From: Pseudisothecium myosuroides
Taxonomy: Eukaryota > Streptophyta > Bryopsida > Hypnales > Lembophyllaceae
Reading direction: 5' to 3'
DNA: 64,000 bases
Assembly (NCBI GenBank): GCA_951799445.1
Contig: OX637289.1
Span: 24,924,245-24,988,244 of the forward strand
Every line of letters begins with the position of its first letter. Position 1 is the first letter of the stretch. The translations under genes and the position numbers were made by a program. This document shows positions 8,630 through 63,632 of this stretch, piece by piece. The notes beneath the pieces were generated by a model. It had not been told where the DNA came from. It did no database searches and saw only the letters and a program-made list of their open reading frames with translations.

Positions 8630-10033
8630 CAGAGACAGCGGTCATACTCGTAAGGTTGCCTTACGAGTAATGGTCGGCAACTGCGGCTCAGAAGTTGACT
8701 CGGAAAGTACCAGTGCTGATTTTGACATCCAAAACGGCCAAGTACTGATCTGGCATTGTGTCGGTTCTGACTGCTACGGAGAAGACCACCTCCATACGGA
8801 GTACACAAAGACCTCCTGATGCAGGGGGTTGGTTGATACCATACAGGGAATATCGCTGCACTCGGTAATACATTGCAGATCAGCCAACTAGTTGGATCCT
8901 CAACGTTGAGGGCAGTCCCTTTGCGTCATTGTTGCCCAGAATTGGTGTGCGCAACAGTGTTGAGGTAATCAATTGTCGCCCAGAATTGGTGTATCGCAGA
9001 GATACAACTCCTTTTTTTATTATTTAGTTCATTGTCAAGGATGTCATCCGGGATCAGACATGATAGACCGTGCTCATCTTGTAGAGCCTTGGAATGATGT
9101 CTTGATGAGAAAAGTAAATGGATGTAGATGTGGATTCGCAAATATTTCTACTCTCATGCCGTCATTCTTCATTATAATTTTGGCTTACGAACGGTTTTTG
9201 ACCCTGGCTCTGGGATTCTATTTTCAACCTCTCTGTTGCCGACTTTGTGGCGGCTGGGTTGATATTTTCATAAAACTTTGTTGCCGTACACTGTATTTTC
9301 CTTTTGAATTTAGTAGCCAGACAAATTCGTTTTATACGGAGTATCTGTCTTGCGTACTCCTGGTTTTTCATTTTTTTGGTTTACAAGTTTGGGTATTGTC
9401 AACCAACAATATGGATTTAGTTGATATTTCTTGGGGAGAGTTGCTTGAAGTCATTTTCAATGAATGTTGTCGGATATACCCTAGAGATATTTTGACTTTC
9501 CTACATGAGCAAATGGCATATCCTTGGATGACTACCGGTATGTTGCTAGTGTATTTTGGCAACTTCTTGCTTCTTTTTCTTGATCTGAAATTAAGTCATA
9601 AAAATGATCTTTTTAAAATTTGAGCTTAACTAATGAAATGAAGCTTATCAAGTCTAGTCTTAGTACAATTTGAAAAATTGAAAAATTCTTAAAATTTAGT
9701 CTTCTTCCCTACTTGAAGGTTAGATTTGATAGAAATTAAGTCATTTTTGTAAGAAAGTGCTACATATCATCTTGTGAATGGTTTGAGGTGACGCGGTCCT
9801 CTGAGAATCAGACCTTTACATATGGTATTGCAATTTGAGCTTTGGATCCATAACCATGGAGTGCTGATTTTGTAGTTTTAGAACGGTATGATAAATTGAT
9901 GTCACCCATGATATTCTTCTCTATAATATTTAATTATGGAGAAAATTATAGACTTTTTAAAATATATTTTGCATTTGATTTGAATTATTTTGACTTGTCA
10001 TTCAATATCTTACAAAAACATTTGAAATATATA
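8630..10033 (+). other. PIP5K 3' region and AT-rich spacer
   Basis: Directly after the kinase stop lies probable 3' UTR. It includes a short direct repeat around GCCCAGAATTGGTGT (8936 and 8978). The long open frame at 8973-9623 begins with TTG, has no known domain and probably reflects chance in the UTR. From about 9640 the sequence is AT-rich without features up to the TA target of the foldback element. Confidence 0.5.
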
Positions 10034-11448
10034 CATTGACTTCCAAAAGTAGTTGGCCACCATATATATCGCTCTCATAAATTGAGAAATTGGAATTATG
10101 AAGTGAAATTTGGACATGTACTGTACAAAAGGGATTCTACCTTCACATGTAATCTCATTTAGAACGGACTATATTTAGACCTCTTATAATTTGAATAAAA
10201 TTTCTATGTAAAAATAAACTTTTTGTAAGAAGTCAAAATGTTTCATTTCTTTTTATAGGAAGAATGTACATCTTGACTAGAATCACAAGTTATAAGTTTC
10301 ATGAATTTTGGATTTTTATTGATTGAAACATTGTTGATAGAAATTTGACCTCAAAATTTTGACTTTTTTATTTTTCACTCCATAAATTGTAAAAGAAATA
10401 TGTTATTGATGTATATAGTTATTTGATGTTATTTTGAGTTTTTATTTTATTTTTTTGCAATTTTCAGAGTGAAAAATAAAAGAATCCAAAATTTGAGGTC
10501 AAATTTCTATCAATAATATTTCAACCAATAAAAACCCAAAATTCATGAAACTTGTATTATGTGATTCTAGTTAACCCCTAAATGCCCAAGGCCTATTTTG
10601 AGCCTCTTGGAATTTGCTCTAAATTGAACAAAAAGACAACATTTTAATAAGTTGAATCAATTTTTTTAAATTGTAACCTTACAAATTCAAACTAGACATG
10701 TTAGAGAACACATAGGAAAAGAAAATACAACAATATCATTTAAGGATTGAAAGATTATAATGTTTGATCATCAAGGTGTTAAAACTATGAAAATCTTTGA
10801 GCTCGCTTTTTGCATGTCAAATCAAAAAAGTTAAAGACCAAAAAAATATGTAGTTGAAGGGCCTAACAAATATAACCCCAATCAATTTATGACTTCTCAA
10901 AATCTACTCTAAATTTTTTTTAAATGAATTTCTAGTGTGATTTTTTCTCCAAAATCTAGTGTATTGGAGGCTCATTTCCAAGAGCTCAACACTACGAAAA
11001 GTCAAGATTGCAATGGGTACCTTTGCACAAAATCTTGAATAGAAAAATCATAATCATTCATTTTCAAAATCGGATTTTTGATGCTAAAACTAGACTTCAA
11101 AAAGAATCTTTCAAAAATATTAAGTATTAAAAATAGCAATTTGGTAAGGTTTTATTTAACTTCAAAGTTTCTTTGACACCACATTTGGGTGCCTTGGGCA
11201 TTTAGGGGTTAAGATGCATATTCTTCCTATAAAAAGAAATGAAACATTTTGACTTCTCACAAAAAATTTATTTTTATATAGAAATTTCATTCAAATTAAA
11301 GAGGTCTAAATATAGTCCATTCTAAATGAAATTACACGTAAAGGTAGAATCCCTTTTGTACAACATGTCCAAATTTCACTTCATAATTCCAATTTCTCAA
11401 TTTATGAGAGTGATTTATATGGTGGCCAACTACTTCTGGGAGTCACTG
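10034..11448. mobile_element. Tc1/mariner-like foldback element with long hairpin arms
   Basis: Left end CATTGACTTCCAAAAGTAG and right end (read inward) CAGTGACTCCCAGAAGTAG, both followed by TTGGCCACC and flanked by TA. This is the termini and TA target style of Tc1/mariner elements. The inverted repeat continues far inside: left arm 10034 to about 10397, right arm about 10459-10574 plus 11209-11448, with a loop of about 60 bp. The right arm is interrupted by a second element (10575-11208). Without it the element would be about 777 bp of nearly pure hairpin. It has no coding capacity and would be mobilised in trans. A transcript would fold into long double-stranded RNA. Confidence 0.8.
10575..11208. 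mobile_element. 634-bp element with TTAA target sites (piggyBac-like MITE)
   Basis: Ends are a perfect 18-bp inverted repeat, CCCCTAAATGCCCAAGGC and its complement, flanked by TTAA on both sides (10571-10574 and 11209-11212). It sits inside the right arm of the foldback element. The mirrored left arm (about 10270-10290) still shows the uninterrupted site, read as CTAG-TCAAG-ATG on the opposite strand. So one TTAA and this insert were added precisely. TTAA duplication with CCC...GGG termini is the signature of piggyBac transposons. No transposase is encoded, so superfamily assignment rests on ends only. Confidence 0.7.
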
Positions 11449-11450
11449 TA

Positions 11451-12760
11451 TGACTTTTAGGAAATTTATATTGTAAAAAAATAAATGTAATAAATTTTTT
11501 TTGTACATAATAGCATAATGGAACCATATACAATAACAAAAGAATCATATATAGCACTTCAAAGTTGTATAGATGGCTCTACATACAACAAATGAAGTAG
11601 GAAACACATAGCCCCCTTAATCTATTCACAAGGGGTAATCCCATTAATTAGTATATTAATTAATTAATGTTCCAAATCAAAATTCTTCTATTCTTTTTCA
11701 CTATAGGTGATTGTAAGAAACACTTTGTATTATCTGTATCACACATTGCGGGCCAATTAGGTTCTGGTTCCTACATCTTGGAATTCTAATTGGATGCCAT
11801 CAAATTTTTACCAAGGTTGTACAAGGATAATATAGTTCTACTATATTTTTTTGGTACTTTTCATAAATAAAATAAATGTGGAATAGTACTTCTGAAGGTG
11901 TGGTACATTTGGTGGAGGAGGGGGGGGCACTACTTTTGTGGTCCTTTTTTTGGGAGTTCAAATTTGAAATTTTTATAGCCTCATCTTCACCCTTTCTTGT
12001 AGAAGGTTTCAAAAAATAGCATTGCAATTGCCCAGCTTAGACTCTTGCTTGAAGAGGTTTGTAATCCCAAGATTCTAGTGGTTCAAGAATGTCTTGCAAA
12101 TTTGAGTTTTCTTCGTCACATGCCTTCTAAAGGTAGTTCACAACGATGGCCACTCAAAAAAATCATATATATTAGCCCCATTATTTTTTTTTTCAATTAG
12201 GACACACCGTTTCAATGGAAATTTTCCAAAATAGTACTAGAGTGTAGTTTTAAGTACTACAAAGTACTCATCAATACCCACCAAATAGGGCTTAGAAGAG
12301 AAGAAAGATGAAAAGTAAATTTTTTTCATTTGTATAGACAAATGGGAGGTTACACGTATCTAAACTACAAAAAATCAAGGAAAAAAATAGACAATCCAAA
12401 TTTTTTCTCAACCAAAAAATAGTATTCAAATGTATTCATAGTATTGATAGTACAGATTTCCAAAATTAGAAAAATGAAACAAATAGTACAAGTGTTTCTT
12501 GCAATGATCCTATACACCGATCCATTAGTATCCCTAATTTGTTGCAAAATAATGGTCTCTATGTTTTCTTTATAGTCAAAGATATATTGGAACTACCCTA
12601 TTAATTATGAAATCTCATTCTTCATTTCTCTCTTTCAATTTTTATACAAAGATTGTATTTAAATGTTATTGAACTTGTTATTTTTTTGAAATGACTACAA
12701 GCTATAATCATATGCACACTAAAAAATTGAAATATGGAACCACCCATGCAACTTTTGCCA
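11451..12760. other. AT-rich intergenic DNA, nothing recognised
   Basis: No open frame of note, no domain and no clear repeat boundary. Homopolymer T and A runs are common. I see no RNA gene. Confidence 0.5.
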
Positions 12761-33963: not shown

Positions 33964-34372
33964 AGTTGTTTTGAAAATTTATAAATTGTGTTCAAAGTAA
34001 AAATTCAGACCTCAGTTTGGCATAGTAGAATACCGTTTTTAAAAAAACTTTGAACTTATATAAGTTGGTAAATGAATTTAGCTTTCATCTCCAAAAATCC
34101 GTTTGAGATTTAGAGCCACCAATCAAAAGTTATGGACAAAGTTCAAAGGCAATGCTTGAAATTGTCAAAAAAATGTCCCTTCCAAGCCGTCTTTGAACTT
34201 TGTCTATAAATTTTGATTGGAGACTCTAAATCTGAAACGGATTTTTGGAGATGAAAGATAAATTCATTTACCAAATTTTTTTAGTTCAAAGTTTTTTGAA
34301 AAAATGTATTCTACTATGCCTAAATGAGGTTTGAATTTATACTTTGAACACAATTCCTACTTTTCAATTGAC
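33964..34372. repeat. Long imperfect hairpin of about 400 bp
   Basis: The left arm (about 33964-34160) is complementary to the right arm (about 34175-34372). Key paired words are TTGTGTTCAAAGTA / TACTTTGAACACAA, GGCATAGTAGAATAC / GTATTCTACTATGCC and CATCTCCAAAAATCCGTTT and its complement, with a short loop. There is no coding capacity. It is either a foldback transposon remnant or a hairpin RNA source. Confidence 0.7.
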
Positions 34373-35257: not shown

Positions 35258-38040
35258 AGGGGTTAATAGACATGTAATGAAACCAGGATAAAAGGAGCAA
35301 GTGAACTCGTCACTCGCAAAACCATCAAGCTCCCTTCGTACAAATAACTAGTTTCATTTTATTCTCGATTTTATTTAATAGATATGTCATGAAACGACAA
35401 TGACAGGGGCAAGTGAACTTGTCACTTGCAAAACCATCAAACTCCCTTCATACAAACCACTAGTTTCATTCTATTGAATAGACATGTAATGAAACAAGGA
35501 TGACGGGGGCAAGTGAATTCGTTACTTGCAACACCATCAAGCTCCCTTCGTACAAACAACTAGTTTCATTCTCTTCAATAGACATGTAATGAAAGGAGAA
35601 TGATGGGGGCAAGTGAATCGGTCACTCGCAACACCATCAAACTCCCTTCGTACAAACAACTAGTTTGATTCTATTCAATAGGCATGTAATTAAATGAGAA
35701 TGATAAGGGCAAGTGAACTTGTCGCTCACAATGCCATCAAGCTCTCAACGTACAAACAACTAGTTTCATCCTATTTAATAGACATGTAATGGAACAATGA
35801 TGATCGAGGCAAGTAAACTTGTCATTCGCAAAAATCATGAATTCGCTTTCATACAAACAACTAGTTTTGTTGTTTTTAACTGACATGTAATGAAACCAAG
35901 ATGATAGGTGCAAGTGAACTTGTCACTTGCAAAATCATCAACCTCCCTTGCAATAAGCAACTAGTTTCATTTTATTTATTAGAAATGTAATAAAATCAGG
36001 ATGATAGATGCAATTGAACTTGTCACTTGCAAAATCATCAATGTACCTTCCTATAAGGAACTAGTTTCATTTTATTAATTAGACATGTAATAAAACCAAG
36101 ATGATAGTGGCAAGCTAACTTGTCACTCGCAAAGCCATCAAGCTTCCTCCCTACAAACAACTAGTTTCATTCTTTTCAATTGACATGTAACTTAATCAAA
36201 ATGATACGGGCAAGTGACTTTGTTACTCGCAAAGCCATCAACTTCCTTTCTTACAAACAACTAGTTTCATTCTACAGTAGAACCTCTCTAAGTTGATAGA
36301 GTTGGGACCGGTCTGACACGTTGAGTTAGAGAGGTTATTACATTAGGGAGGGTCATCATGTTCGTATGTGGTTCATATTGTTAAGTTGGGACCGGCAATC
36401 AATACTTTCTGACAACGCTTTATTGACTTAGAGGGGATTGACTTAGAAAGGTTCTATTGTATTTAATAAATATGTAACAAAACGAAGATGACAGGGCAAG
36501 TGAACTTGTCACTTGCAAAACCATCAACCTCCTTTCGTACAAACAACTAATTTCTTTGTTTTTAATAGACATGTAATGAAATGGTGATGACAGGGGCAAG
36601 TGAACTCGTCACTCGCAAAACCATCAAGCTCCCTTTGTACAAACAACTAATTTTTTTGTTTTCAATAAACATGTAATGAAACAAGAATGACAGGGGCAAG
36701 AGAACTCGTCACTCGCAAAACCATCAAGCTCCCTCCGTACAAATAACTAGTTTCTTTGTTTTTAATAGACATGTAATGAAACAAGGATGACAGGGGCAAG
36801 TGAACTTGTCACTTGCAAAACCATCAAGCTCCCTTTGTACAAACAACTAGTTTCTTTGTTTTTAATAGACATGTAACGAAACGAGGATGACAGAGGCAAG
36901 TGAACTCGTCACTCCTAAAACTGTCAAGCTGCCTTTGTACAAATAACTAGTTTCACTGTATTTAATAGACATGTAATAAAACGAGGATGACAGCGGCAAG
37001 TGAACTTGTCACTCGCAAAATCATCAACCTCTCTTCTTACAAACAACTAGTTTCATTCTATTTTATAGACATGTAATTAAACGAGGATGACAGGGGCAAG
37101 TGAACTTCTCACTTGCAAGCCATCAAGTTCCATTCTTACAAACAATTAGTTTCATTCTATTCAATGTAATAAAACGAGGATGACAGGTTCAAGTGAACTT
37201 GTCACTCGCAAAACCATCAACCTCCTTTCATACAAACCACTAGTTTCATTCTATTGAATAGACATGTAATGAAACAAGGATGACGAGAGCAAATGAACTT
37301 GTAACTTGCTAAACCAATAAAGGTCCCTTCCTATAAAGAACTAGTTTCATTGTATTTAATAGATATGTCATGAAACGACAATGACAGCAGCAAGTGAACT
37401 TGTCACTCACAAAACCATCAACCTCCTTTCGTTCAAACAACTAGTTTCATTTTATTTAATAGATATGTCATGAAACGACGATGACAGGGGCAAGTGAACT
37501 TGTCAATTGCAAAACCATCAACCTCCCTTCATACAAACCATTAGTGTCATTCTATTGAATAGACATGTAATGAAACAAGGATGACGGGGGCAAATGAACT
37601 CGTCACTCGCAACACCATCAAGTTCCCTTCGTATAAATAACTAATTTCATTCTGTTCAATAGACATGTATTGAAACGAGGATGACAAAGGAAAGTGGACT
37701 TGTCACTTATATATTATCTAGCCTCTCTTATAAGCAATTAATTTCATTTTATTTAATTGATATGTAATGAATCAAGCATGATGGAGGCATGTATACTTGT
37801 CACTCCAAAAACTTTCAATTCTCTCTACAAACAATTAATTTTTTTTCCATTCAATTGACATAAAATGAATTGAGGATGATAGAGATATTTGAACTTCTCA
37901 CTCGCAAACCATAAAATCTGCTCTACAAACAAGTAATTTTATTCTATTCAATTGATTTATAATAAAATAATGATGATAGAGACAAGTGAACTTATCACTT
38001 GCAAAATCATTGATCTACCTACAAACAATCTTAATTTCTT
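35258..38040 (+). repeat. Satellite-like tandem array, about 100-bp monomer, about 26 units
   Basis: Each monomer reads roughly GACATGTAATGAAAC, GAGGATGACAGGGGCAAGTG, AACTTGTCACTCGCAAAACC, ATCAAGCTCCCTTCGTAC, AAACAACTAGTTTCATTCTA. Starts fall at 35481, 35581, 35681, 35781, 35882 and 35982, a regular 100-bp step. The GCAAGTGA...TCACTTGC segment is an 8-bp-arm palindrome. Units vary mainly by C/T and G/A at CTCG versus CTTG sites, as expected from methyl-CpG decay. Later units (after about 37690) are more diverged. One MITE interrupts the array at 36275. The step is shorter than a nucleosome repeat. Confidence 0.92.
36275..36459. mobile_element. Emigrant/pogo-like MITE inserted in the satellite
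   Basis: 185 bp, flanked by TA at 36273-36274 and 36460-36461. The left terminus CAGTAGAACCTCTCTAAGTT and the right terminus (read inward) CAATAGAACCTTTCTAAGTC differ at four of 20 positions. The surrounding monomer (TTTCATTCTA | TTTAATAAATATG) matches uninterrupted monomers, so the insertion point and TA duplication are directly visible. Non-autonomous. Confidence 0.85.
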
Positions 38041-53910: not shown

Positions 53911-54375
53911 CTAAATTTCGGGTTTAGGAATTATGCCTGATTGGTATCTAAGTTTGGTGAAGCTATTGAAAAGTAGTCGTTTTGTGAGGAAATCAACTAG
54001 TTGGAATTTTGTCGACACATATCCTACTTGTATTTCGCTTGCCTTGGCAGTCTCCCGAATAAAGTGATGCTGAATTTTGATATGTTTGGTTCTGGCATGT
54101 AAGACTGGGTTTTCTACTAACTTGATACACGACTGATTGTCACTAAGGAGTGAAGTAGGATTGTCCATGTTGAAGCCGAGTTCTTGAAAGAGTCTTCGCA
54201 GGTGTACAATATCTTTTTTTGCGTCGGTGAGGACGCAGTATTCGGCTTCAGTGCTTGACAGAGATACGGTGGGCTGCATTTTGCTGCTCCACCCGATGCT
54301 GGATTCTCCAAACTGATGCAGGATTCTAGAAATTGATCTGCATGTGTCTATGTCCCTTCCCCAGTCAGCGTCAAC
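53911..54375 (-). pseudogene. Copia RNase H domain fragment
   Basis: Residues DADWGRD, then SLSSTEAEYCVLTDAKKDI, DNQSCIKL and HARTKHIKIQHHFIRE are the ordered motifs of copia RNase H, followed by the element C-terminus. The expected upstream join to reverse transcriptase is broken by the insertion at 54376-55120. Confidence 0.9.
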
Positions 54376-55120
54376 GGGTGATTGCAAGAAAGACTAGTAC
54401 TATTTTCCGTCACATTCAAAGTGACGAAGTTGTTTTCTGCTATAATTTTTGAAGGTTGAACCCGATGAACTTAAAATTTTGATTGGAAATGGCTAACTTG
54501 ATTGTAATCATATCCCTTATTTTTTAGAAATTTTAAAAAATCATTTTATATTTAAAAGTCAATTTTGCTAATTTGTCACACTTTGAGGTTTAGGGGTTTT
54601 TAGTACTAGGGAGTACCCAAAATTAATGATTTAGAGCTGAAATTTCTATGGTCTATTTCCATAGTAGAAAGTCATATTTCTACCAAAAGGAATTTAAAAA
54701 TAATTTATTTTATGTCCTCTACATGCGTGCAAACAGGGCTCCTTTGCGCGCACATTTTTGAACATTGAAGATGGTTTTTAGATAACTCTTTTCATGAAAT
54801 CCCTTCATCATAAAGTTCTCTCAAATTGTCAATTTTTATTTTTTTTTAATTCATGATTTCTATTTATTATTAATTTATACCTCATTGTATGTATTTTCTG
54901 TGACAAACTGCATTTTTTTCCAAATAGTACTGTTTCAGTACTTATTAGTAGTCATAGTACTCGCAACAGTACTTTCAGCCATCGATTTTTTAGATCAACG
55001 GCTAAGATTGTTTTCTTTCGCAGTACTCACAGTACTCACAGTACTCATAGTACTGAGCGCAAAAACTGCAATTTTGGCAAAACGCTACAAAAACTGAACG
55101 GTCTTTCTTGCAATCACCCC
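54376..55120. mobile_element. 745-bp TIR element inserted in the copia pol
   Basis: The ends GGGTGATTGCAAGAAAGAC and its complement (GTCTTTCTTGCAATCACCC) form a terminal inverted repeat of about 19 bp. The insert separates copia reverse transcriptase (ending about 55121) from RNase H (starting 54375), where related elements are continuous. The interior has repeated AGTACTCACAGTACTCA-type words and no coding capacity. I could not identify a convincing target duplication, so the superfamily is open. Confidence 0.65.
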
Positions 55121-56100
55121 GACGAAGGAGTGAAGGATACCATCAGAGTTTGAGACAGTAGAAGTCCGTGATCAGCTATCCCAGTGAGGTATCTAAGAAT
55201 GCGTTTGGCCACTTGGAAGTGTGCAACTTCGGGTTCCTGCATGTAGCGGAAAATGTTGCTTACAACGTAGCAGATGTTGGGGCTTGTATGAGAAAGGTAG
55301 AGTAGACTACCTACCAAAGATCGATACAATTCTGGGTTGATCTTGTCTGTCCCTGTGTGTTTTTGAAGCTGCTCCTTGGGGTCCATTGGAAGCTTTGTAG
55401 GGTTGTAGTCCTTGAGTCCAAATTTCTCCAGGAGCTTCATGATGTAGCCTCGTTGGTTGATAAAAATGCCTTGATTGGTTTGATGAATCTCAACGCCCAA
55501 ATAGTTGCTAGCGGCACCAAAATCAGTCATCTCGAATTCATCGTGAAGCTTCTGCTTTAGGTCAGCAATTCCACAGGCATCATTTCTGGTGATTAGAAGA
55601 TCGTCCACGTAGAGGAGGAGGATTATCAGTTTGCCGTCCTTCCTACTGAAATACAGATTTGGATCGTTTTCACTACGTGTTAGTTCTTGAAGCCATATGT
55701 TGATTCTATCATACCATGCCTTGGGTGATTGTTAGAGTCCATAGAGTGCCCTGTTTATCTTGCAAATCTTTGTAGAGTCGTCTGCTCCTGGGAATCCTTC
55801 TAGGATTTCCATTACAATTTCTTCACTAATGTTCCCATCCAAGAACGCAATTATAACGTCCATTTGAGATAAGGGCCAATTGTGTTTGGCTGCAAGTGCT
55901 AAAATCACAAGTATGGTGGACCATCTTACCACGGGTGCAAATACATCGTGGTAGTCGATGCCCTCCTTTTGCTGAAAGCCACGTGCTACAAGTCGAGCCT
56001 TCAATTTGTTGACTGTACCATTGGAGTTTCCCTTCGTTCTGAATATCCACTTGGCTGTGATCGGTCGTTTGTGTGTAGGTCTGTCGATGACGTCCCAGGT
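55121..56100 (-). pseudogene. Copia reverse transcriptase region (frameshifted)
   Basis: The 5' part (56004-55732) holds KARLVARGFQQKEGIDYHD and FAPVV motifs and ends NRALYGL. A stop follows (55730 region). The 3' part reads LYVDDLLIT (the YVDD catalytic box, about 55620-55590), NYLGVEI, YRSLVGSLLYL and RILRYL. The stop between the parts and the downstream insert show that it is dead. Confidence 0.9.
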
Positions 56101-56364
56101 CTGGTTCTTGAGAATTGACTAAACTTCTTTGTCAATTGCAGTCTTCCACTCCTTCTGCTAGCTTGCAGTCTTGAAGTCTATAGGCTCTTTTAGGACTTCA
56201 GAGAGAAGAGTCCAGAAGTCCTTGAGTTTAACGGATGGGACTCTGGTCCTGGTGGGATACCGACGAGCCGAAGGTCCTTTCTGTCTATCTGCAGGTAAGG
56301 GTGTTCTAATTTTCTGAGACGGGCTCTGATTTGCTAAGCGTGGAGACTGTATGGGTACTGTACG

Positions 56365-57291
56365 CTACATGGGATCTGTTTTTGATCTAGTTTCAGTGGT
56401 TTGAGCTAGGCTAATAATAGAGCTATCATTACTAGGGAATTCTGGCGCTTCGCTGAGAGGATATTCTGTATGTTCGGGCTGGCTTGGTTCTAACGGTGAG
56501 GCTTTGGGTGTAGGTTTAGAGAGATCAATGTCATGACTAGGTTGCTCTAAGGAATCTAAATTGGAAAATATAAGTGTATTTGAAATTGATTTAGCTGAGG
56601 CTAGGTACTGATATCCTACCTGTTGTTCATCAAATATGACATCCCGACTAATCAGAATCTTTTGGGAGGTTCGATCAAAGAGACGGTAAGCCTTGGTTTC
56701 ATTGTTGAAACCGAGAAACAAACATGTAATTGATTTGCTGTCTAGTTTTCTACGGTTCTCCTTTGGAATGTAAACATGGGCGATACAACCAAAAAATTTT
56801 AGATTTGTGACATCGGATATCGTACTTGTGTATCAGGCTTCAGGTGTCTCTCCGTTGTTTGCACAAGTTGGGCTCCGATTGACCAAAAAAGTTGCATGAG
56901 ATAACGCCTCAATCCAAAGGAAGGCGGGAAGATTGCAATTGTGGGAGATGCTTCTTGCTCTTTCCATTATGGTTCTGTTTCTTCTCTTAAAGACGCCATT
57001 TTACTGTGGTGAATTTGCCTAAGTAAGCTCGTGTTGAATGTCGTGTTGTTTATAGAGGTCGGTAAATTCTTCGGACAGGTACTCCCCCCCTCTCGATTGG
57101 AGCACAATTTTGGCAATGTGGCCAGGTTTGTCGCAGTTCTAACATATTAGAGGTGGGCAAGGTCTGTAGAAGCTTTGCCCCGGGAAGCCGCGGCCCCTTG
57201 TCGCATACGGCCAGCGTCCTCCTCGCGTCCGCGACATGTAGTAGGTATGGTCGCCTTTTGCTGAAAACTAGCAGCCAGTGCTTCCTCGTCT
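56365..57291 (-). pseudogene. Copia gag zinc knuckle joined to integrase remnant
   Basis: Near 57145-57110 a gag zinc knuckle (CYNCDKPGHIAK) is followed within a few codons by LQSRGG and, in another frame, GKF/EEFTDLYKQH, which is the middle of the integrase core. Protease and the first half of integrase, normally hundreds of codons long, are absent. Downstream (56721-56365) is the variable linker between integrase and reverse transcriptase, with FLGFNNETKAYRLFD. The segment is an internally deleted copy. Confidence 0.75.
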
Positions 57292-57296
57292 CCTAG

Positions 57297-57699
57297 TGTA
57301 ACGGACGTGCAGGATACAAGACAAGACAAGATGGTTTCCAGATAACAAGACTTGATATTAGAGTTCAAAAAGTACAAGACTAGAGCTTGAGTCAAGAGCT
57401 AAGATCAAGAAAGGTGTTGTCGAGACTGAGGACTACCTCAACCTCGACTCCTATATATACTATCAGCTAGGAGATTCTTCCAGAAGCTTCTACTATCTGG
57501 GAAGCTTCTCAAGAAGCTTCCCTCTAGCTTGGACGTCCTTCCAGAAGCTTCTTTCATTTGGGAAGCTTCTCAAGAAGCTTTCCTCCAACTTAGACGTCCT
57601 TCTAGAAACTTCCAGAAGCTTCTCCTACTTGGGAAGCTTCTCAAGAAGCTTCCTCTAACTACAAGTTTCTCGGAGGAGGTTCTAACTATGTCCGTGACA
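57297..57699 (-). repeat. 3' LTR of the gypsy element (403 bp)
   Basis: Matches the other LTR with about 16 substitutions, all transitions, and one 5-bp deletion. It contains the same HSE array (one five-box site at 57600-57622), TATATATA and AGTCTCGACAAC start region. On the element strand it is preceded by the polypurine tract at 57700-57713. Confidence 0.95.
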
Positions 57700-57713
57700 T
57701 CACCCCCTTTTCT
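57700..57713 (-). promoter_or_regulatory. Polypurine tract of the gypsy element
   Basis: On the minus strand AGAAAAGGGGGTGA lies directly before the 3' LTR. This is the position and composition of the primer for plus-strand DNA synthesis. Confidence 0.8.
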
Positions 57714-58329: not shown

Positions 58330-58705
58330 TTTAGATAGGCTACGGTTTATCAGGATAGCGTTGACGAAATTCATGTATCTTTTGCGGCGCATTGACTAAG
58401 TTCGTTGTTGATTCCCATGTACGTTCGTGAATGTCGTATCCACGTCAATGTACCAAATACTCCAACTTGTCATGTCTACGTCGTGAATCAAGTACCTTTT
58501 CCACCTCATATTCCTCATGATTATCTATTTCGATGGAAGGAGCTGGTGGTTGACTTCTTCTTGACAAATTTGACTCTTTATGCGGCTCAAGAAAAGAAAC
58601 ATGAAAGACTGGATGGATTTTCATAAATGTCGGAAGCTCCAATCGATAAGCAACGGGATTAATCTGCTTTTGAATGGAAAATGGGCCTAGCCGACAATAA
58701 TCCAA
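58330..58705 (-). pseudogene. Gypsy integrase C-terminus with chromodomain
   Basis: After the [13 protein letters not shown] segment typical of gypsy integrase tails comes [12 protein letters not shown] then KLEYLVH, the start of a chromodomain. An in-frame TGA stop occurs where the family has Trp, and the remaining residues (RGYDIHERTWES...) continue in frame behind it. The chromodomain would direct integration to modified chromatin. As it stands, the product ends inside the fold. Confidence 0.88.
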
Positions 58706-58747
58706 TTTGTCACATGGACGAGTAGTCTGAATGTTGCGTCGAAGGAG

Positions 58748-59371
58748 TTAAACTTTGTCGCCAACTTGGAATGGAGGAGATTCTTTGCGCAACACGTCTG
58801 CTGACATTTTGTAACGATCTTGAGCTGCTTGTAGATGAAGTTTCATCGTTTCATGAAACTCTGATAAATGCAAAGTCAAATCTTTGGCTGCCGGATTGTC
58901 CGTTTGAGAAATGCCGAATAAATCAAACTTCGGATGGTATCCATAGTTGGCATAAAATGACGTTTGTCGAGTAGAAGTGTGGATAATGTTGTTGTACGCA
59001 AATTCCGCCAATGTCAGATGTAAAGTCCAATCATCTTGTTGATAGTTGATGGTACAACGTAAATACTGTTCCAATACTTGATTTATGCGTTCTGTTTGGC
59101 CATCCGTTTGAGGGTAGAAGGTAGAAGAAAGTTTGATATCCACCTTTAAAGTTTCAAAGAGAGATCTCCAAAACTTGGAAACAAACTGAGGTCCTCGGTC
59201 CGATATGATATCGTTTGACAGTCCGTGATATCGATAATTATTGTTCAAGAAGAGCTTCGCTGTTTCTTCGCTAGTAATTGTCTTTTTGCATGATATAAAA
59301 TGCGCCATTTTTGTAAGTCGATCCACAATTACACATATGGAATCAAAGGACTTGGATGGAGGTAAGTCCAT
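58748..59371 (-). pseudogene. Gypsy integrase catalytic core
   Basis: The D,D,E residues are visible in order: VIVDRLTKMAHF, IISDRGPQFVSKFW and PQTDGQTERIN. The reading frame is open across the core and ends at QVGDKV with a stop. The zinc-binding HHCC part lies upstream (about 59714-59400) in disrupted frames. Confidence 0.9.
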
Positions 59372-59748
59372 AATAAAGTCTATCGAAATTGAAGATCATG
59401 ACCACTTTGAAATGGATAATGGCTAGAGAAGTCCATGCGACCGATGTTGAGGATTCTTAAAACTTGAACAAGTGTCACAAGTGAGTACAAAGTCTTTGAA
59501 AGCTTTCCACATTTGAGACCACCAAAAATCTCGAGACACGAGCTCTAGTGTTTTGTTGAATCCAAATGTCCAGCGGCAGGAAAATCATGTCGAGTTTGAA
59601 GAACTTGAAGGCGCAAGAGACCTTCAGGAATGTATGAACGTTCTTCAAAATACAAGAAGTTGTCCGAAAATTTGAAATTGTCGCCATCACGGTGAGACCG
59701 ACGCTTGATGTCAAGAACTAGAAGATCCAAAGTCGATGCTGCACGAAC

Positions 59749-60273
59749 TTAGTCAAGGAACGAAGAATCAACTGGCATTGCCATAGTTATTGCACAAAGG
59801 TGAAATTGCTCGGGCTTAAGGAGAGTCATTTGTTGTTGGTTGTATGCAGCTTCTCTTTCTTTTGGTACCAAGTATGATCTCCGAGACAAGGCGTCTGACA
59901 ACCCTTGTTGCTTTCCGGGACGATACGTGATAATAAAGTCAAAGCGAGATAAAGACATATTCCAACGAGCTTGACGTTGATTCAGAACACGAGCAGACAT
60001 GAAATATTCAAGATTTTTGTGATCTGTATATACAGTCACCCGATGTGACGCACCTTCAAGTAAGTGGCGCCCTTCTTGAAATGAGTCCACAATAGCAAGA
60101 AGCTCCTTGTCATGAATCTTGTAGTTAATCTTAGCAGCTGAAATTTTTTTCGAATAGAACGCGACGGGGTGAAGTCTTCCTTCTTCCCCCATTTGCGAAA
60201 GAACTGCTCCTAATGCAAAATCTGAAGCATCCGTTTCCATATAAAATGGTTTCAAAAAGTTTGGATGGGTCAA
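59749..60273 (-). pseudogene. Gypsy RNase H domain
   Basis: Contains TDASDFALGAVLSQ, KELLAIVDSFQEGRHLLEG and VYTDHKNLEYF, then the tether RQARWNMSLSRFDFIITYRP. Stops separate it from the reverse transcriptase upstream and from the integrase zinc region downstream. Confidence 0.9.
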
Positions 60274-60306: not shown

Positions 60307-60921
60307 TCAAAAAGCCTTCTTTGCTTCAGGTCCCCAATCTAGTTTGTCTTTGCACATTAACCGAGTCAGTGGAGCTGCTACTTGTGAGTAATTTTTGATG
60401 AAGATCCAATAGAAGTTGACAAATCTAAGAAAACACTGTACATCGCGTACTGTTCGAGGAGTTGACCAATCTGTAATAGCTTGAATTTTCTTTGGATCCA
60501 TCAATAGGCCTTCGTTGGAGATGATATATCCAAGAAACTCCACTTGCGTTTGATGAAATACGCATTTTTCTAATTTGGCATATAATCCAGCGTCTCGTAG
60601 CTTTTGTAGCACAAATTTTACGTGTCGTTCATGTTCTTCAACATTTTTGGAATAAATCAAGATGTCGTCAAGATAACATACGACAAATTGGTTCAAAAAT
60701 TCGCGGAAAATATCATTCATCAAGTGTTGAAAAATAGCTGGTACATTTGTAAGTCCAAATGACATAACATTATACTCAAAATGTTCATATCTTGTTCGGG
60801 ATGCTGTCTTCCATTCGTCCCCTTTTTTTATGCGTACCAAGTTATACGCTCCACGAAGGTCAATCTTGGTATAGATTTTGACTTGTCCAAGTTGATCAAG
60901 AAGTCCAGATATTAACGGCAA
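60307..60921 (-). pseudogene. Gypsy reverse transcriptase, fingers and palm
   Basis: Shows [34 protein letters not shown] and the catalytic [10 protein letters not shown] box, then [19 protein letters not shown]. The first part of the domain ([19 protein letters not shown]) is in the upstream frame, which ends in a stop at about 60928. Confidence 0.93.
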
Positions 60922-60927
60922 AGGATA

Positions 60928-61725
60928 TCAATTTTTTACCGTTAATTTATTCAGACCTCGATAGTCAACACACATTCGTAAAGATTCGTCTTTTTTCTTC
61001 ACAAAAAGTATTGGCGCACTAACTGGAAATTTGGAATGTTGAATGAAGTTCTTTGCAAGATTTTCGTCAATATACTCCTTCAATGCTGAAAGTTCATTCT
61101 GCGACAGGTTGTGGATTGGACCAAATGGCGGCTGAGCTCCATCTTCAAGATCAATGGCGCAATCGTATGGCCGATGATCCGGCAAAATGCTGGGGTTCTT
61201 CTTTTCAAAGACATCTCCAAATTCTTCATACTGACTTGGAATACTTGATAAAGTATTATTGTTGTCACGTACTGGGGTTGCGTAAATGATATAGGGGTTG
61301 TCCTTTTTTGCTGCTTTAATAAAAGCTCTAGCTCCAATAAGTACGGGCTTGGCACTTGAAGACGCTGGAAGAGATTTCGTTACTGAAGTTTCTAGAGAAA
61401 AGGATAGACTTCGTGACTTCCAGTCTACAACTGGATTGTATTTTTCGAGCCAAGAAAATCCTAAAACCACGGGGTTAGATGGAGTTTTGATCACATTAAA
61501 TATGATCTGACTTTTATGCCCCTCGAATGAAACCTCTAATGGTTTAGTTTCATAAGTGACATCGCCCGAAGATAAGGTCCGACCGTCTATGGCTTTTTCA
61601 TGTACAGGGTTTGGTTTCTTGACTAAAGGAATCTTGTGACGTTTTGCAAATTTCTCGTCCATAAAACAAGCTGAAGCTCCAAAATCTAAAAGGGCATGAA
61701 TCCGTAACTTCTTTTTAGAGCCCAA
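60928..61725 (-). pseudogene. Gypsy protease and start of reverse transcriptase
   Basis: The aspartic protease motif reads [15 protein letters not shown]. The position after the catalytic Asp is Phe where the family has Ser or Thr, so the active site is probably damaged. The C-terminal [17 protein letters not shown] box and the reverse-transcriptase entry [12 protein letters not shown] follow. The frame ends in a stop after KLTVKN. Confidence 0.9.
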
Positions 61726-61817: not shown

Positions 61818-62834
61818 CTACTGTGGCTGAATGTCCTCGTTTTCCGGTATATGTACAGCTTTTGTCTTGAGAAGATGTTTTTTGTGCTTCTTCTGGCAAT
61901 TGGTGGCTTTGTAGCCAGGGCCTCCACAATATAAACACAAATCTTCATCAAGACGACATTTCTTTTCTTGAGCGATAAGTGGTCCAAATCGTACAACATC
62001 AATTTGCATGTCCTCAGGGCCTTCGGAATGTATGCTTGTTATAAGTGTTGCCTTGACTGTTGGCGAGATGTTTGTTTGTGCGGTTGGCATAGTCCATGAT
62101 CGTCGATCTTGACGCCGTTGAAATAATCGATTGTCACATTTTATTGCTTGACTTATGACTTTGTTGAGTGTCTGGGGATCAGGAAATGATAATAATAAGT
62201 CCTTGACGTCGTCTCTCAAGCTCTATTGAAATTGACTCATGAGTGCTTCTTCGCCCCAATTGATGTCGCAAGCAAGTTGTCGGAATTCCGATGTATATAG
62301 CGAAGCTGAGGAAGATCCTTGTCGTAAAGAACGAACTTTAGTTGTTGCCCAACGGATCTTATCGTGTTCTCCAAATGCTTCAGAAAATGTTGCTAAAAAT
62401 GTCTCGAAGTTGTTGAGAATTGAAGATCTTTTCTCAAATAGCGGTGAAAACCAAGATAAAGCTTGTCTAGTGAGCAAGCTTCCAATCAAGCCCACCCTTG
62501 ATTCGTCTGTCGAATATCGTTGAGGTTGAAGAAAAATGATGAGCTGAACTTGATTCATAAATCTTCGAAATTTTGTTCTAGAACCATCAAACTCTTTGGG
62601 AAGACTAATCTGAGGCTCCTTTGCGGTTGAAATGTGTGAATCAAAGTGTTGAGCAGGTACACTTATCCTCAAAATTGAAGCAAATGGAATGGATTGAGAT
62701 GCTTCAACCGCTCTTACGTTTGTATTTGCAGCAAAGTCTTCAAGAACATTTGTCCACATGGACAAAGAATCAATAGCCTTCAAGATGAAATCTAATTTAG
62801 GTGCTACTGAATTGGCGTCTTTGCTTCCTGACAT
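61818..62834 (-). pseudogene. Gypsy gag (capsid and zinc knuckle)
   Basis: Starts MSGSKDANS at 62834. Capsid-like words are PKEFDGSRTKFRRFMNQVQL, ALSWFSPLFE and LYTSEFRQLACDINW. A TAG stop at about 62220-62222 splits it. The second part carries a zinc knuckle CLYCGGPGYKATNC in which the metal-binding His is Tyr. Confidence 0.9.
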
Positions 62835-63206
62835 CTTGATTCACTCGGCAAGAATACTAAAAGGATTGAGTTACTGATCAAGAACCAATTTAGAGATGGG
62901 TAATCCTCAATCTCTAAATATCAAAGTTGTTTTTAAGAAGGGCGGTAGTCCGTACGCAATCAAGAATAACTTTGTTGAGAAAAAATAATATTAATTTAGA
63001 GGAGGGTAGTCTGCAACCTCTAAGTGCTTCAATATTTTCAAGAAGGGCGGTAGTCCGCACACAATCAAGAAAAAATCAAGCTCAAATATTAGTTTTGCCC
63101 TTGGTCCTTTCAATGACTAACACGACAAGGTTTGAACTGAACTAACACTCTGTCCATTTGCTAAGAGGGCCGAAACCAAATTTTGCAAAGCAAAATTTGA
63201 AGAGTC

Positions 63207-63217
63207 AGTCTCGACAA
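63207..63217 (-). promoter_or_regulatory. Self-complementary primer-binding site of the gypsy element
   Basis: Lies two bases inside the 5' LTR. The minus strand reads TTGTCGAGACT, the exact 11-base complement of AGTCTCGACAA at 63355-63345, the predicted RNA 5' end in the LTR. A tRNA primer site would normally begin TGG (pairing with CCA), which is absent. This is the arrangement of Tf1-type self-priming. Confidence 0.75.
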
Positions 63218-63219
63218 AC

Positions 63220-63627
63220 TGTAACGAACGTGCAGGATACAAGACAAGACAAAATAAGATGGTTTCCAGATAACAAGACTTGATATTAGAGTTCAAAAAG
63301 TATAAGACTAGAGCTTGAGTCAAGAGCTAAGATCAAGAGAGGTGTTGTCGAGACTGAAGACTATTTCAGCCTCGACTCCTATATATACTATCAGCTAGGA
63401 GGTTCTTCCAGAAGCTTCTACTATCTGGGAAGCTTTTCAAGAAGCTTTCCTCTAGCTTAGACGTCCTTCCAGAAGCTTCCTTCATTTGGGAAGCTTCTCA
63501 AGAAGCTTCCCTCCAACTTAGACGTCCTTCTAGAAACTTCCAGAAGCTTCTCCTACTTGGGAAGCTTCTCAAGAAGCTTCCTCTAATTACAAATTTCTCG
63601 GAGGAGGTTCTAACTATGTCCGTGGCA
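63220..63627 (-). repeat. 5' LTR of the gypsy element (408 bp)
   Basis: U3 runs from 63627 leftward with three TTCnnGAAnnTTC-type sites. A TATATATA box lies at 63387-63380, and the predicted transcription start is 63355, 32 bases downstream. R/U5 extends to 63220. Ends TG and CA on the element strand. Confidence 0.95.
63403..63570 (-). promoter_or_regulatory. Heat-shock-element array in U3
   Basis: Perfect alternating TTC/GAA boxes with 2-base spacing: three boxes at 63406-63418, three at 63467-63479 and five at 63528-63550. Additional GAAGCTTC pairs separated by TCAA occur between them. Heat-shock factors bind three or more alternating nGAAn units. The array lies directly upstream of the TATA box (63380-63387), as in heat-activated retrotransposons. 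Confidence 0.7.
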
Positions 63628-63632
63628 CCTAG

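Follow-up and report, generated by a model that had tools for sequence, protein, structure and literature searches.

What primes the first DNA strand of an LTR retrotransposon whose LTR carries, in its interior, the complement of the site just beyond its own end? The element that raises this question occupies 63627 to 57297, on the minus strand, in a 64,000-nucleotide stretch of the 388-Mb assembly of the moss Pseudisothecium myosuroides (GCA_951799445.1, contig OX637289.1), and that whole stretch is here called the window. What the window holds is very probably an old copy, defective in its protein-coding parts, of a Tf1/sushi-type chromovirus, in plant terms probably of the Tcn1 clade, whose family would prime minus-strand DNA synthesis with its own RNA. 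The parts of the element, in window order, are these.

57292..57296, target site duplication CCTAG, left copy (sequence)
57297..57699, minus strand, 3′ LTR of 403 bp, in RNA sense TGTCACGG...GTTACA (direct repeat of the 5′ LTR)
57417..57427, minus strand, the self-primer segment as it recurs in the 3′ LTR (LTR comparison)
57700..57713, minus strand, polypurine tract AGAAAAGGGGGTGA, adjoining the inner edge of the 3′ LTR (sequence)
58340..58747, minus strand, integrase SH3-like C-terminus and chromodomain, in two frames, 58445-58747 and 58340-58444 (Pfam)
58748..59371, minus strand, integrase core piece (Pfam rve, E 1e-7, just under cut-off)
59423..59584, minus strand, H2C2 zinc finger, in another frame than the integrase core (Pfam)
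59749..60273, minus strand, RNase H piece (Pfam RT_RNaseH, E 3e-36)
60307..60921, minus strand, reverse transcriptase piece (Pfam RVT_1, E 5e-33; trees)
60928..61725, minus strand, protease (Pfam RVP_2, E 3e-4)
61818..62834, minus strand, gag in two pieces, 62223-62834 and 61818-62219 (Pfam DUF4939 and Retrotrans_gag on 62223-62834)
63177..63199, minus strand, perfect 10-bp hairpin directly downstream of the primer binding site (similar sequence, by eye, in 13 of 14 sister copies inspected)
63207..63217, minus strand, primer binding site (PBS) TTGTCGAGACT in RNA sense, 2 nt past the 5′ LTR (complementarity; sister copies)
63218..63219, minus strand, two-base spacer GT between LTR end and PBS (sequence)
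63220..63627, minus strand, 5′ LTR of 408 bp, in RNA sense TGCCACGG...GTTACA (direct repeat of the 3′ LTR)
63345..63355, minus strand, self-primer AGTCTCGACAA, the 11 nt with which the RNA is predicted to begin (complement of the PBS)
63380..63387, minus strand, TATA box TATATATA, 32 nt ahead of the predicted RNA start (sequence)
63406..63550, minus strand, U3 stretch holding five heat-shock-element triples, of which three overlap (motif scan)
63628..63632, target site duplication CCTAG, right copy, a perfect 5-bp duplication with the left one (sequence)

The boundaries are supported by the TG...CA ends of the LTRs, the purine tract and the perfect target site duplication. Between the two LTRs there are 16 transitions, no transversions and a 5-base indel (K2P 0.041). 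As the domains are spread across several frames, the copy is broken in both gag and pol. The gag piece at 61818-62219 had no match in the Pfam search, and the C-terminal end of the protease piece resembles, by eye only, the start of reverse transcriptase (RT). At the integrase C-terminus SH3_Tf2-1 is recognised with E 5e-17, and the chromodomain is in two pieces and two frames (Chromo E 0.002 for profile positions 1-22, under cut-off, and E 3e-6 for positions 24-53, above it).

The window has other occupants. Beside the gypsy element, at 53911-56721 on the minus strand, translations read by eye show pol fragments of copia type (RT, RNase H and others), their frames broken. A diverged tandem repeat array at 35269-37749 consists of 16 overlapping 300-nt copies in steps of about 100 bp, and 10031-11451 and 33975-34364 hold five long inverted repeat pairs, possibly foldback-like, with arms of 81-174 nt that are 85-94% complementary. 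An open frame of PIP5K type has its best named matches in Sphagnum (60% identity over 86% and 62% over 73%); unnamed database proteins score higher (58-91%), and the lycophyte, fern, gymnosperm and angiosperm matches listed rank below Sphagnum.

The original prediction took as its starting point an exact complementarity of 63207-63217 to 63345-63355. This is confirmed and was in fact understated, the match being of 13 nt, 63205-63217 with 63345-63357, of which the 11 just named run from the predicted RNA start. It had put the site two positions inside the 5′ LTR: the two-base offset is right, but the site is just internal to the LTR, across the spacer at 63218-63219, and not in it. The start segment that it saw in the other LTR is likewise present, one base away from the approximate 57418-57428 that it gave, at 57417-57427. 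The TATA box to which it referred lies at 63380-63387 and has its first base, in RNA sense, 32 nt before 63355; the predicted start sits at the junction of a C and an A, and both spacing and context fit what may be a polymerase II start.

How readily would such a match arise? When a complement may start 0-5 nt past the LTR and pair with any part of the 408-nt LTR, the longest one observed is 13 nt; among 20,000 dinucleotide shuffles of the LTR plus downstream stretch, 13 nt was reached in one, at least 11 nt in 24 and at least 10 nt in 85. The LTR segment's distance of 32 nt from the TATA box fits too, separately from the length of the complement. If a self-primed PBS is sought as a complement to the 5′ LTR of at least 10 nt, 0-5 nt past it, the element has one of 13 nt at offset 2. 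Pairing with the 3′ CCA of a mature tRNA requires TGG in the PBS, and TGG is absent from the first 41 nt past the LTR of the window's element. The feature is real, comparative evidence makes a function in its family very likely, and the site is most likely a self-priming site of the Tf1 type.

That evidence begins with sister copies, termed family A. An LTR search of the assembly, in which 40 of 109 first-look candidates were scored, found at least 46 matches; 40 were near full length, the window's two among them, and the other 38 of these were read with 200-bp flanks. The primer segment is AGTCTCGACAA in 29 of the 40, and the TATA-to-primer distance is 32 in all 39 that have a TATA motif, a pattern search having found none in the remaining one, L039. 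A PBS follows 16 of the 40 LTRs. Eight of these 16 keep the perfect 11-nt complement, five have one change and three two, the imperfect eight counting against the model. Of the 11 primer or PBS changes eight are transitions at the CpG (C to T or G to A), as would be expected from methylation decay, and seven of these eight leave a G-U pair. Two copies (L037 and L040) share an A to C in the primer with no matching change in the PBS, which speaks against strict maintenance in those copies. Perfect 5-bp target duplications flank seven of the eight LTR pairs examined, the LTR start of the eighth having been misplaced in the analysis. The ratio of transitions to transversions between paired LTRs is 16:0 for the window and 20:0, 14:0, 18:1, 14:2, 14:2, 29:5 and, weakest, 4:3 for the others; such an excess is as expected from the decay of methylated cytosines.

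Does the pairing persist where the sequence does not? After a search of the assembly with RT (150 of 770 candidates scored), the upstream stretches of 30 elements outside family A (10 + 20) were read, and 11 have a self-primer/PBS pair of other sequence at like geometry: five in family B, five in family D and one, D′. In family B (L077, L078, L087, L088, L089), whose RT is 75-77% identical to the window's, the primer is ACTCTCGTCAA, the PBS TTGACGAGAGT and the spacer GT, with TATA at -32. Compared with A, the B primer differs at +2 and +8 and the PBS differs at exactly both partners; as the flanks of both segments can be aligned between A and B, these two compensatory changes were not picked by complementarity. 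Family D (L082, L083, L094, L096, L097; RT 53-54% identical) has primer ACTTGACATT, PBS AATGTCAAGT, spacer T and TTTAATA at -31. D′ (L095; RT 54%) has primer ACTCGACATA, PBS TATGTCGAGT and spacer T, and is two compensatory pairs from D; a pattern search found no TATA motif in it, and by eye there is only AATAAAG near -32. In B, D and D′ the LTR ends were judged from ...ACA beside the site, no second LTR being used.

Standard pairs fill 266 of the 270 cells from +1 to +10 in the 27 copies of the four self-priming types (A, B, D and D′), a figure that is partly built in because the B, D and D′ segments were first found by complementarity, and eight of the ten positions change on both sides between families. 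Three lines are independent of that search: where the site sits relative to the LTR end, how far the primer is from the TATA motif, and the comparison of A with B; D against D′ adds a second case, from a single copy. The check for covariation that the original prediction had proposed was positive in the host assembly, both in the conservation within family A and in the compensatory change in B, D and D′. Each family's own primer and PBS form its most stable duplex (A -16.2, B -16.2, D -10.9 and D′ -13.1 kcal/mol) and cross-family duplexes have -10.9 kcal/mol or weaker, the margin being small for the D primer on the D′ site (-10.2). Exact genome matches to the PBS with an LTR end number 54 for the D type and six for the B type, five of the latter being the elements read.

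What of the other 19 relatives? Three (L085, L105, L106; RT 41-45%) have TGGTATCAGAGC, a putative tRNA-iMet-type primer site, L105 with one change. In 16 no primer/PBS pair could be assigned in the upstream stretch read, which may miss the PBS, or the element may be truncated or different. Other complementary runs of at least 9-10 nt in the 30 stretches were not counted, as they lack LTR-end context, a TATA motif or both: a 9-nt run in L106 follows ...ACAGT and a 10-nt pair is present in L086, each with no TATA motif, and a 10-nt pair common to L098, L099 and L101 has neither LTR-end context nor TATA motif.

Would the leader RNA fold so as to bring primer and PBS together? For the window's leader from +1 to 47 nt past the PBS (196 nt) the helix is in the minimum-energy fold with a mean pair probability of 0.92, and for a leader 40 nt longer (236 nt) the optimum fold lacks it. 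Two family B leaders have the helix in the optimum fold (pair probability 0.94); in a family D leader the optimum is without it, the pair probability is 0.55 and the forced structure is 1.3 kcal/mol worse. Against shuffles the window's leader folds are not unusual (z -1.34 and -1.03). Tf1 needs two further duplexes, in a three-duplex ‘pretzel’ RNA (PMC10085805). D and D′ have a second helix, of U5 with a stretch 12 nt past the PBS (TAGAGCAT/ATGCTCTA versus GGAAGCAT/ATGCTTCC), with three compensatory pairs between the families (L082, L095), and this U5-to-leader helix resembles one arm of the Tf1 structure. For family A a 7-bp candidate in the window for a duplex of the U5-IR type was rejected, being absent from all 14 copies inspected of the 16 with a PBS, and no conserved second and third ‘pretzel’ duplexes were found; a 7-bp second-duplex candidate in family B was also set aside, as by estimate chance would often yield such. 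The hairpins just downstream of the PBS in A (63177-63199) and B (L077:599-658) are unrelated in sequence. Compared with shuffles, the post-PBS stretch is far more stable in B (z -4.7) and not so in A (z -0.65) or D (z 0.06).

In outline, transcription by RNA polymerase II would begin with the A at 63355, 32 nt past the TATA box; the RNA's first 11 nt (AGUCUCGACAA) would then loop round to pair with the PBS, which lies 2 nt beyond the 5′ LTR; RNase H would cut after nucleotide 11; and DNA synthesis from the freed 11-mer would run across the two spacer bases into U5. Self-priming is, with high confidence, the best explanation: the two segments are complementary, they hold a fixed position relative to the LTR end and the TATA box, sister copies conserve them, and related families show compensatory change. 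This favours the Tf1/sushi-type mode that had been predicted. Most plant LTR elements use tRNAs (PMC6317226), an iMet-type site is present in three of the 30 related stretches, and the host tRNA set is incomplete (54 predictions, 50 of them distinct, from 37 loci, with some contigs looking organellar); its intended positive control, the iMet-type site of L085, failed, no tRNA in the set matching it. Even so, it is very improbable that the primer is a host tRNA, intact or cleaved in its anticodon loop, with the complementarity in the LTR a coincidence. Besides the lack of TGG within 41 nt of the LTR, the best run against the 50 distinct tRNAs of that incomplete set is of 8 nt and internal, and the 3′ end pairs over 2 nt at best, so the better-pairing tRNA that the original prediction wanted sought is not among them. 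An exact-pattern search of the genome for the primer 11-mer with a tRNA B-box-like motif in the 30 nt downstream found 0 places. With a tRNA as primer there would be no reason for the PBS to change together with the LTR segment, as it does in B, D and D′, and this covariation largely refutes tRNA priming.

It is just as hard to credit that the complementarity is due to chance, or to a non-functional duplication of LTR sequence beside the LTR. Runs of 10 nt do occur in shuffles, in the 85 of 20,000 given above for the window, and the observed complement length is reached by 2 shuffles for B, 8 for D and 14 for D′ out of 5,000 each; yet four families of different sequence have one geometry, with the partly built-in 266 of 270 cells paired, the primer segment starts 31-32 nt past a TATA-like motif in A, B and D, the orientation is inverted, not direct, and the compensatory changes between A and B refute chance. 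Could the helix form and be selected for a different role, such as RNA dimerisation, packaging or translation control, while another primer is used? Pairing and priming are inseparable by sequence data alone, and a hairpin follows the PBS in both A and B. Such a role is nonetheless improbable, as Tf1 of fission yeast is reported to prime in the way proposed here (PMC7175516), the site lies 1-2 nt past the end of the LTR, the position required of a PBS, and in A no tRNA-type site is found beside the LTR. Self-priming thus remains the preferred reading.

When might the RNA be made? The U3 stretch at 63406-63550, and the same place in the 3′ LTR, has five motifs of the TTCnnGAAnnTTC type, presumably heat-shock-element triples. 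At least one is present in all 40 family A LTRs (range 1 to 6), whereas of 5,000 dinucleotide shuffles of the U3 55 had one triple and none more than one; three B and D stretches tested had none. Among gypsy elements of Physcomitrium, RLG2 is reportedly induced by heat and ABA, and RLG1 repressed by heat (PMC7466625). If the array does what its motifs suggest, family A would be a heat-driven, self-primed element. The fuller picture, of sister self-priming chromovirus families that rewrote primer and PBS in step beside tRNA-primed gypsy relatives, with the window's family both heat-driven and self-primed, is a tentative one and rather doubtful as a whole. Were it true, the evolution of primer choice and of primer specificity could be watched inside one moss genome. 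The tRNA-type relatives provide an internal contrast to the self-priming families, the differing primer/PBS pairs would allow it to be asked whether related elements cross-prime, and the host is a place where self-priming could be shown biochemically in a plant.

Where does the element belong? In an RT tree of 25 rows, A, B and C group with Cryptococcus, Mucor, Absidia, ascomycetes, fish, snake, frogs and unnamed database rows, apart (support 98/97) from the outside rows, two from Tanacetum, one of them of 161 aa, and one from Closterium. The tree has no named Tcn1, Tf1 or sushi reference, its Cryptococcus row is not assigned to a family, and most deeper forks within the larger group lack resolution. 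The Cryptococcus and Absidia rows have 60% identity to the window's RT, Mucor has 57%, the ascomycetes 50-57%, fish and snake 56%, the two frog values are 51% and 57%, and Tanacetum has 44-48% and Closterium 45%. Since its RT groups with fungal and vertebrate elements, membership of the Tcn1 clade is likely, and the chromodomain at the integrase C-terminus, a trait of the Tf1/sushi group, is present as two Pfam pieces. Among viral contigs, searched with the RT protein and the RT alignment, and among genome contigs, tblastn confirmed no relatives. One protein match (P0227) is an RT with 77% identity over 72% in a record of the bacterium Kitasatospora herbaricolor, most likely through plant contamination.

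The original prediction also supposed that plant LTR elements use tRNA primers. As a rule this is wrong: in Neumann et al. 2019 (PMC6317226) 12% of the plant elements analysed are predicted to self-prime, copia elements of the TAR lineage have the same prediction, and it is reported that most Tcn1-clade elements, from moss and club-moss, are without tRNA sites and predicted to self-prime. As that prediction covers most of the clade, the novelty of plant self-priming falls, and the window's element is not a plant first; what is added is clear primer/PBS covariation among families. What was there a computed prediction has in A, B, D and D′, within one genome, a comparative test. In a limited literature search no experimental demonstration of self-priming in a plant was found.

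How, then, does the element compare with known systems? Tf1, the founding element of the Tf1/sushi group, is from Schizosaccharomyces pombe and uses the first 11 nt of its RNA as primer, complementary to a PBS beside the 5′ LTR (PMC7175516), as predicted here, and it too has a chromodomain (PMC10085805). For Tf1 the cleavage between nucleotides 11 and 12 (PMC7175516) and the three-duplex structure (PMC10085805) are reported; for the window's element the cleavage is predicted, no conserved second and third duplexes were found in its family, and its host is a plant. Self-priming has reportedly been proposed also for Tcn1 of Cryptococcus (PMC7175516). SM-Tcn1 of Selaginella moellendorffii (Novikova et al. 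2010, PMC2864245) is a Tcn1-like chromovirus, as the window's element probably is, and has 440-bp LTRs, a TATA box and a 5-bp target site duplication; its authors reported no evidence of tRNA priming or of self-priming. The TAR lineage of Ty1/copia (Houba, Osr-1) shares predicted self-priming in plants but is of the copia, not the gypsy, superfamily (PMC6317226). With the Tcn1 clade as described in PMC6317226 the window's element shares what is likely a common host group, a chromodomain, the lack of a tRNA PBS and an RT that branches with those of fungi and vertebrates, and its complement to the 5′ LTR satisfies the criterion used there (10 nt or more, with a start 0-5 nt past that LTR); compared by description no difference is established, and to it is added here the covariation of primer and PBS across families of one genome.
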